NCBI RefSeq assembly: GCF_045679555.1
Contig: NC_092096.1
Location: 27,536,364 to 27,600,363 of the forward strand
Length of the DNA: 64,000 bases
Direction of reading: 5' to 3'
Origin: Salvelinus alpinus
Taxonomy: Eukaryota; Chordata; Actinopteri; Salmoniformes; Salmonidae
How positions within the stretch are numbered: the stretch's first letter is position 1; the number at the start of each line of letters is the position of its first letter. A program made the translations under genes and the position numbers. Shown piece after piece: positions 22,201 through 30,487 of the stretch. The notes below the pieces were generated by a model. It saw only the letters and a program-made list of their open reading frames with translations, was not told the origin of the DNA and searched no databases.

Positions 22201-25200
22201 TATATAAATGGTAGAGGTGAAACAGCATAGCCCTGAGGTGCCCCTGTTAAGCTACACCTGTGAATGACTGATACTATAACTGTCTCTGGATCTTCTATTC
22301 TCTCTGAACGGTAGAAGTCAGGATGTCTAGAAGTCCTCATGTCCCTGGTCCTTTTCCTGGGCACTCTTTAGCTACTCGTGTTGTATCCAAATATTTCATT
22401 CTTGTTTGGTCGCTGTTAAGCTTTATTGCCTTTATTACCAGCATGGTCATACATAACGTTGTCCTGTGACATAAATTTGGTACTGATGAGATGATTACTG
22501 GTATTGAACTCAAAATCAGTGCTTCACACTCTGCACGGCTGGACCAAAAGACGTAGAGCTTCCAGTCCATGAGCGACAGTTGGCTTTTGAAGCCTCCTGC
22601 TACTCAGTAAGTGAGGCTACTGCTCTCTGGTAATCTCTGGCGCTCACTGGCGCCCTCTGGTGGTCTCTGGCGCTCTCTGGCGGTCTCTGGTGGTCTCTGG
22701 CGCTCTCTGGTGGTCTCTGGCGCTCTCTGGCGCTCTCTGGTGTTCTCTGGCACTCTCTGGTGGTCTCTGGCTCTCTCTGACGCTCTCTGGTGGTCTATGG
22801 TGGTCTCTGGCGCTCTCTGGTGGTCTTTGGTGGTCTCTGGTGGTCTCTGGTGGTCTTTGGTGGTCTCTGGCGGTCTCTGGTGGTCTCTGGTGCTCTCTGG
22901 TGGTCTCTGGTGGTCTCTGGCGCTCTCTGGCGCTCTCTGGTGGTCTCTGGCGCTCTCTGGTGGTCTCTGGTGGTCTCTGGCGCTCTCTGGTGCTCTCTGG
23001 CGGTCTCGGGCTCTCTCTGGGGGTCTCTGGCTCTCTCTTGTGGTCTCTGGCGCTCTCTGGTGGTCTCTGGCGCTCTCTGGCGCTCTCTGGTGGTCTCTGG
23101 CGCTCTCTGGTGGTCTCTGGCACTCTCTGGCGCTCTCTGGTGGTCTCTGGTGGTCTCTGGCGCTCTCTGGCTCTCTCTTGTGGTCTCTGGCGCTCTCTGG
23201 TGGTCTCTGGCGCTCTCTGGTGGTCTCTGGCGCTCTCTGGTGGCGCACCTCCTGCATTAGCATTGACTCCCTCTGTCGCTGTCTTTCCCACAGATAGAGA
23301 TTGGCACACTGGCCCCACCAGATTATAACTACCCTGGCCCTGGGGGCCCTGCATCACTGGAGGAGGAAGAGGAGGAGGAGTTGCCCCTAAGACCCCAGCT
23401 CATCCCCCAAGGCTCAGGGGGGTCTGGGGTACTCATGGGCCCCGACGCACAGGGAGGTCTGTATACACACATACACACACTCACAGCACATACACCGTGT
23501 CACCTCACACTATGAACCCATACACACAGGGAGGTCTGTATACACACCCACAGCACATCCACTCTGTCACCTCACACTATGAGCCCATACACACAGGGAG
23601 ATGAAGGTATGTGTCCAGTACTGACAGTGATACATAACACACAACCTTTCCTCTTAACGCCTACCCATGCAAATCGACCCCTTTTTACAATCATCCTTCG
23701 TCATTTCCAAATGCATGAGTTCCATTTAACTGTCTGACATTAGTTAAATGTGTGGTACTCAACCATAAATCTCATTAACTTTTTGTAATGTCACCTAATC
23801 ATCATTGTAAACATGACTCACTAGCCCTAAACTGAATCATGGTCCACTGTGCTCTAACCTGTCTCTTCTAACACCTAATCTTGTCTCTAACAAGAGGAGG
23901 AGCTGCGCCTGAGTCCCATTGACATTCTTCATGTCTCCGGGGACTTTGGGGGTTCCACGGGTTCTGGAGGTTCCGGTGGCTCTGGGGTTTCCGGAGGTTC
24001 TGGGAGTTCCGGAGACCTTTTGGCTTCCGGTTCTGGGGACCTTTTGGTTTCTGGAGGCTCAGGGGGTTCCAGGGAAATTAGTTCAGCAGGTTCTGGGGAT
24101 CTTGGTTCTGGGGGTTCCAGGGTCCTTGGTTCCGGAGACTCTGTGGGTTCCGGGGACCTTGGATCCGGAGGCTCTGTGGGTTCCGGGGAACTTGGTTCTG
24201 GACGCTCTGTGGGTTCTGGGGACCTTGGTTCTGGAGGCTCTGGGGATCTTGGTTCTGGAGGCTCTGGGGGTTCCGGGGATCTTGGTTCCCGGGGCTCTGG
24301 AGGTTCCGGCACCCTCATAGGCTCAGGGGGTTCCGGGGACATATTGGGTTCCAGTACTGGGGGTTCCGGAGGTTCTGGAGGTTCCGGGGACTCAGGAATA
24401 ATAATTATATCTGGAGGTCAGTACCTATACTTATACAGACTACACTGTATAAGTATACAGATAGTTGGTTGGGCCTATAGTGGCCTTGTGAACCTAGTAC
24501 AGTTCCAAGCACTGATTGATACACTAAGACTATATGGGATTTCAATGCATTTCATTTAACTGCTTTGTGCTGGTTAAATGTGAATTGATAATGCTTTCTT
24601 GTGATTTGCTACTTGTCGTCATTGTAAACCCTGTGTAATTGTTTGTCACTTACAGTATCATTGTCATTGTAAACATCACTCATTGTCCTACCATTGTCAT
24701 TGTAAACGTCACTCATTGTCCTACCATTGTCATTGCATTACTTACCATAAGTTCCTAATCATTGTCAACATAACCCACTGTCAAACCATGTTTGAGAATG
24801 ATTGATTGATTGTCTGATTGAATGATTGTTGATTGACAGTCCATCCCATCCCATGAGAAGCACTAACCTATCTCCTAACCCCTCCCCTTGGCTCTAATAA
24901 GAGGAGGAGCTGCACCTCATTCCTGACACTACCCCCCAGGAGGCATCGGGTGCTTCTGGGGAGTCTGGGGCCTCTGGCACCTCATTGGCCTCAGGGCCTG
25001 GAGGCTCCTACTCTGGTGGGTCAGAGGTCACATTAATCCCTGACCCTGAAGGTAAGTACCAACAAATAAAGAAACAATAAGAAAACAGATCTCTATGGTA
25101 TCAACCCATTGTATCATATGTGTAAGGATAACAGGGGTAAAGGTCCCGAAAACTTTGAGCAGAAAGCATGCTCTGCTGCCATGTCCGTATTTGGACAGGA

Positions 25201-30487: not shown

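Follow-up and report, generated by a model that had tools for sequence, protein, structure and literature searches.

A probable fish-type glycosaminoglycan domain encoded by three related symmetric exons of the epiphycan gene in Salvelinus alpinus

The epyc locus and a second copy of the gene

The window analysed here, the whole stretch of 64,000 nucleotides at C11:27536364-27600363 of the Salvelinus alpinus genome, harbors on its plus strand a gene that we assigned to fish epiphycan (epyc). The first coding exon (7218..7409) runs from the ATG through the signal peptide and a tyrosine-rich acidic N-terminus to the donor CAG|gtaagata, and an intron of about 16 kb separates it from the acidic exon (23294..23456), which ends in phase 1 and contains two Ser-Gly pairs. 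Downstream lie the cysteine-cap exon (29230..29388), two exons encoding leucine-rich repeats (LRRs) at 29492..29694 and 29897..29992, and the last coding exon (30317..30487), which also encodes LRRs and has its stop at 30487, all of them on the plus strand as well.

Several features support the assignment of this gene to epiphycan. Some 1.6 kb before the window lies the end of a class II-type SLRP gene (CPKECRCPPSFPNAVYC, Cx3CxCx9C), which we take to be keratocan; if this label holds, the gene studied here has the place expected of epiphycan, in an SLRP cluster adjoining keratocan. By inspection, tyrosines in the N-terminus are followed by acidic residues (SYDSSNYD...VYDYED), as in epiphycan, and the acidic exon carries the Glu run EEEEEEEL, such an acidic run being a feature of human epiphycan too. 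The cap exon contains the cysteine cluster Cx2CxCx6C characteristic of class III SLRPs, a pattern that is given for the OGN/OPTC/EPYC clade in PMC6293640; a tyrosine-rich acidic N-terminus is listed as an epiphycan trait in PMC7310474, and ecm2L, dcn1, lum, kera and epyc are placed together in SLRP cluster C in PMC11917481. The Pfam profiles LRR_8 (E 9e-23), LRR_4 and LRR_1 score above their cut-offs in the epyc product, and the LRRNT, LRR_5 and LRR_9 profiles score below theirs. Among the best 60 of 275 solved-structure matches, the nearest by sequence is opticin, which aligns over residues 1-206 of the 208 in the query (E 2.9e-71), and none of these 60 is named epiphycan. Opticin was considered as an alternative identity and rejected, since the neighbour of keratocan type, like the acidic and the tyrosine-rich exons, fits epyc.

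A second epyc copy was found at C37:18183503-18204322; the 18.87-Mb contig ends about 0.7 Mb further on. A minisatellite of about 620 bp with 10-bp-based units (TCTCTGGYGG-like) occupies window positions 22624-23243, ending about 50 bp before the acidic exon, and is also present in the C37 copy. Just past the acidic exon donor there is a 67-bp tandem duplication (window 23475-23600) that contains a second donor-like GGGAG|GTCTGT.

Three cassette exons between the acidic and cap exons

Between the end of the acidic exon at 23456 and the start of the cap exon at 29230, two boundaries that we corrected relative to the initial annotation, lie three further exons on the plus strand, all of phase 1-1, which we refer to as cassette 1 (23895..24416, 522 bp, 33 Ser-Gly pairs), cassette 2 (24902..25051, 150 bp, six pairs) and cassette 3 (28381..28482, 102 bp, three pairs). 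The initial annotation had proposed three exons of these lengths, phases and positions between the acidic and cap exons, each beginning with EEEL and the first bearing about 30 Ser-Gly dipeptides, and our reconstruction agrees with it in all these respects. Its description of near-identical acceptors and related donors also holds: the acceptors are TCTCTAACAAG, GGCTCTAATAAG and TCTCTAACAAG, and the donors GTCAGTAC, GTAAGTAC and GTCAGTAT, for cassettes 1, 2 and 3, respectively. It had further argued that any number of cassettes could be skipped without breaking the frame, and indeed each of the eight ways of including or skipping them keeps the frame and creates no internal stop, so that, judged from the sequence, these are extra exons omissible in frame, as a splice-variant system demands. 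The joined product is 585 aa long with all cassettes, which add 258 residues, and 327 aa long without them.

The cassettes are related to each other, as the initial annotation had claimed. Their shared heads together with the preceding intron ends are 80% identical over 66 bases (cassettes 1 vs 2), 88% over 56 (1 vs 3) and 76% over 51 (2 vs 3). However, similarity to them extends to the tail of the acidic exon, and the series may therefore comprise four members rather than three: this tail can be aligned to the heads of cassette 1 (AGGAGGAGTTGCCCCTAAGACCC vs AGGAGGAGCTGCGCCTGAGTCCC) and cassette 2, in the latter also beyond the head, and to a Ser-Gly stretch of cassette 3. The scores of these alignments were reached by 0 of 500 mononucleotide shuffles each, the sequences on both sides being of low complexity. 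The Ser-Gly tail of the acidic exon itself is a likely source of the cassettes, although the alignments are only suggestive of this. We also looked at five other class III-like loci, namely the next five matches after the two epyc copies, for a Ser-Gly-rich frame (at least five pairs within 60 residues, in an open frame no shorter than 30), for EEEL in an open frame and for the inverted repeat described below; none of the five has any of these within the 9.3-9.7 kb that precede the cap, a stretch beyond which their upstream exons may lie.

In the C37 copy the cassettes are 564, 153 and 102 bp long, all in frame and with the same acceptors and GT donors, and the product has 601 aa and 45 Ser-Gly pairs, compared with 44 in the window. 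The part from the cap to the C-terminus is identical in the two copies (0 differences in 208 residues); nonsynonymous changes number 21 in 258 cassette codons against none in the 209 cap-to-C-terminus codons, stop included (Fisher p 3e-6). The signal/tyrosine exon varies too, at 7 of 64 residues. Given this distribution of changes between cassettes and cap-LRR part, the protein carries a variable N-terminal segment on a fixed LRR part. Between the copies, dN/dS is 0.49 in cassette 1 (24 differences) and 0.87 in cassette 2 (10 differences), and is undefined in cassette 3, where the one difference is nonsynonymous.

Outside the exons the two copies are also very similar: identity is 96-98% in six introns or parts of introns, 94% in the piece that precedes cassette 3 and 82% in the last intron. 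These values suggest that the copies rediploidised late or that sequence has been exchanged between them. Alignment is poor in the intron separating the last two LRR exons (window 29993-30316 vs C37:18183674-18184168), with 58 differences in 315 positions and a 158-bp gap; its two flanking exons differ at one base in 96 and at none in 171, respectively. The idea that the cassettes evolve faster than the introns was dropped, because the apparent excess (35/774 vs 46/2057 differences, p = 0.002) is unstable: p rises to 0.011 when the piece upstream of cassette 3 is added (59/2293), and to 1.0 when the poorly aligned last LRR intron is added as well (117/2608). The intron between cassettes 2 and 3 contains an element at window 25300-28150 whose ends are presumably Tc1-like, with a nested insert at about 25697-26943 that has, by eye, a reverse-transcriptase-like frame on the minus strand and is missing from the C37 copy.

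A glycosaminoglycan domain and its alternatives

The cassettes are very probably coding. An open frame is weak evidence of this for cassette 1, because other frames of its array are partly open too, and this, together with the minisatellite close by, would suit the reading of the cassettes as non-coding repeat DNA that is open by chance. However, the variation among the repeats of cassette 1 is specific to the frame: the repeat-vs-repeat pN/pS ranges from 0.42 to 0.50 in the coding frame, against 1.36-1.94 in the two others, over four settings of unit length and identity and with repeat pairs that overlap and are not independent. As 51-55% of the inter-repeat differences fall at codon position 3, cassette 1 behaves as coding sequence. 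Frame and splice sites are kept in the second gene copy, and the gaps between the copies are multiples of three in all three cases (42 bp in cassette 1 and 3 bp each in cassette 2 and the acidic exon), the survival of the frame having limited power since the two copies are so similar. The contrast in nonsynonymous changes between the cassettes and the cap-to-C-terminus part is another line of evidence for coding. Moreover, similar exon heads recur at three separate places, and we hold the non-coding reading to be extremely improbable. Retrocopies with spliced junctions were also sought, in 58 matches after 150 of 495 candidates had been scored; among these scored matches, those of at least 87% identity are only single-exon matches to the two epyc genes.

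With the exon anatomy, the in-frame preservation of the cassettes in both copies, their coding-type variation and the constancy of the cap-LRR part at hand, and with transcription, splice variants, chain attachment and collagen binding inferred or taken from the literature, we consider it highly probable that this epyc gene has a fish-type glycosaminoglycan domain made up of three related symmetric exons, the inclusion of which would give a multi-chain form and the skipping of which a small form. The three exons between the acidic and cap exons would be this domain, probably derived from the tail of the acidic exon, which bears Ser-Gly. When the cassettes are included, the 585-aa precursor would contain a flexible Ser-Gly-rich segment of 258 residues, on which xylosyltransferase could start several to many chondroitin sulfate chains; when they are skipped, the 327-aa product would resemble the small form of mammals. 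The LRR part would serve as the fixed folded part, and the clustered chains may allow multivalent binding to collagen, as is indicated by the title of the salmon cartilage paper cited below. A small LRR proteoglycan would thereby become a multi-chain one through exon duplication, with its LRR part unchanged.

Alternatively, the cassettes might always be included, with no regulated tuning of chain number, their symmetric phases being a mere by-product of exon duplication, as a tandem exon duplication survives only where the phases are symmetric. However, all three cassette acceptors have an A at -3, which is found in none of the six other coding-exon acceptors of epyc. An A at this position marks a weaker class of acceptor, and weaker acceptors are consistent with optional exons rather than with constitutive inclusion. 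In addition, a published methods section (PMC7310474) distinguishes short from long splice forms of epiphycan in ray-finned fishes, and we regard obligatory inclusion of the cassettes as unlikely. A different doubt concerns the array itself, which could be a flexible spacer or an O-glycosylated (mucin-like) stalk with few glycosaminoglycan chains. Only 2 of the 44 Ser-Gly pairs, the two in the acidic exon included, fit SGxG, an acidic residue occurs within four residues upstream in 13 pairs and is missing there in the other 31, and Gly-Ser repeats are typical linkers; 30 of the 44 pairs are preceded by Gly (GSG). Yet Asp or Glu lies within four residues before or after 33 of the 44 pairs, arrays of the serglycin type do not need SGxG, and a chondroitin sulfate cluster on epiphycan is named in the title of the salmon nasal cartilage paper cited below, all of which makes a spacer or stalk with few chains very improbable. 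In the light of the few SGxG and acidic-upstream pairs, the number of chains on the proposed glycosaminoglycan domain may be well below 44; its Ser-Gly sequence permits a plausible chain cluster and cannot give the chain number.

The domain can be compared with known systems. In serglycin, a Ser-Gly run forms a cluster of chain attachment sites, and the epyc array would work in a similar way; we do not claim serglycin as a relative, and the epyc array differs from it in being irregular, rich in Gly-Ser-Gly-Asp-Leu and carried on an LRR protein. Mammalian epiphycan (DSPG3, PG-Lb), as generally described, shares with fish epyc the tyrosine-rich acidic N-terminus, the acidic exon, the class III cap and the LRRs; it is not known to carry a Ser-Gly array. 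The mammalian gene further differs in its seven exons, of which exons 3 and 7 have potential glycosaminoglycan sites (PMC8650094). Expression of epyc has been described in the notochord and parachordal cartilage of zebrafish (PMC10665197) and in the chondrocytes and notochord chordocytes of catshark (PMC11917481).

The initial annotation had presented a multi-chain epiphycan tunable by splicing as a break with the view that epiphycan carries few chains. Its identification of the gene as epiphycan and of symmetric related cassettes stands, and a multi-chain form is plausible; however, the novelty does not, as both the clustering of chains and the existence of splice variants have already been described in outline for fish epiphycan, and what we add is the exon-level account of epyc, together with the inverted repeats described below. 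The term large leucine-rich proteoglycan was reportedly used for salmon epiphycan in an earlier paper by Tatara and colleagues, and the abstract of their 2015 paper is said to deal with clustered chondroitin sulfate and type I collagen. That the cassettes overturn the few-chain view is not supported. The 2015 paper, on salmon nasal cartilage (Tatara et al., Glycobiology 25:557), has a title that begins "Chondroitin sulfate cluster of epiphycan" and is cited in PMC9913341 for the promotion of type I collagen fibre formation. To judge from this title, the salmon protein, with the same gene name, from a salmon and with clustered chains, is very probably the product of such an exon set. A 2020 paper (PMC7310474) credits Zhou et al. 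with the description of long splice forms of epiphycan in ray-finned fishes; the same paper reports an epiphycan N-terminal region without major change in jawed vertebrates and leaves the long variants out. The zebrafish gene dspg3l of Zhou, Shirabe and Kuwada (2006), as cited there, reportedly has a longer form in which the extra part can be omitted by splicing, and we infer that this part corresponds to the three cassettes. The exon anatomy of epyc given here is what tests of isoform control in fish cartilage require.

An inverted repeat upstream of each cassette

The initial annotation had noticed blocks common to the introns upstream of the cassettes, and these blocks, CATTTAACTG and GTTAAATGTG, prove to contain both arms of a perfect inverted repeat, CATTTAAC...GTTAAATG. 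It occurs three times in the window, on the plus strand and once in the intron upstream of each cassette, at 23723..23750 (cassette 1), 24553..24580 (cassette 2) and 28210..28243 (cassette 3), while each of 100 shuffles gave no match; the C37 epyc copy has three as well. In the 2.37-Gb genome the pattern is found at 71 places, compared with 23 for a reversed control pattern, and the chance of three falling within 4.6 kb anywhere in the genome is about 2e-7 if an even spread is assumed, sites of a repeat family being uneven. The clustering is explained by copying of the repeat along with the cassettes. The possibility that the inverted repeat belongs to a mobile element was provisionally set aside, as its three loops match no loop among the other sites listed. 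The inverted repeat at each cassette is possibly a new addition to what has been reported for fish epiphycan.

Between cassettes 1 and 3 the arms are identical (8/8 and 10/10, that is 18/18 bases), and agreement is seen at 8 of the 12 loop bases that align and at 48 of the final 60 bases upstream of the exon. In contrast, the 82-base spacer has an identity of 0.56, against a shuffle mean of 0.57, and its alignment score was reached by 12 of 200 shuffles. Since the arms are fully kept while the spacer is no better than shuffled sequence, this one comparison indicates that the arms have probably been kept by selection. The repeat lies 172 and 171 bp from the acceptors of cassettes 1 and 3, and 349 bp from that of cassette 2.

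The inverted repeats might constitute a splicing module, in which the 5' arm of one repeat would pair with the 3' arm of its own or of another intron, and competing stems would pick the cassettes to be looped out and hence the chain number. We consider such a module quite unlikely; if the inverted repeats did control splicing, one conserved repeat per cassette would offer a new handle on it. Neither arm was found exactly in the intron after cassette 3, so that pairing across this cassette would not explain its skipping. Each repeat is predicted to fold as a stem, with energies of -11.6, -10.0 and -9.6 kcal/mol (z -2.25, -2.23 and -3.63). The computed pairing of the arms amounts to -9.3 to -11.3 kcal/mol across introns and -8.6 to -9.5 kcal/mol within introns, compared with a median of -2.2 and a best value of -7.9 kcal/mol in 100 control pairs.
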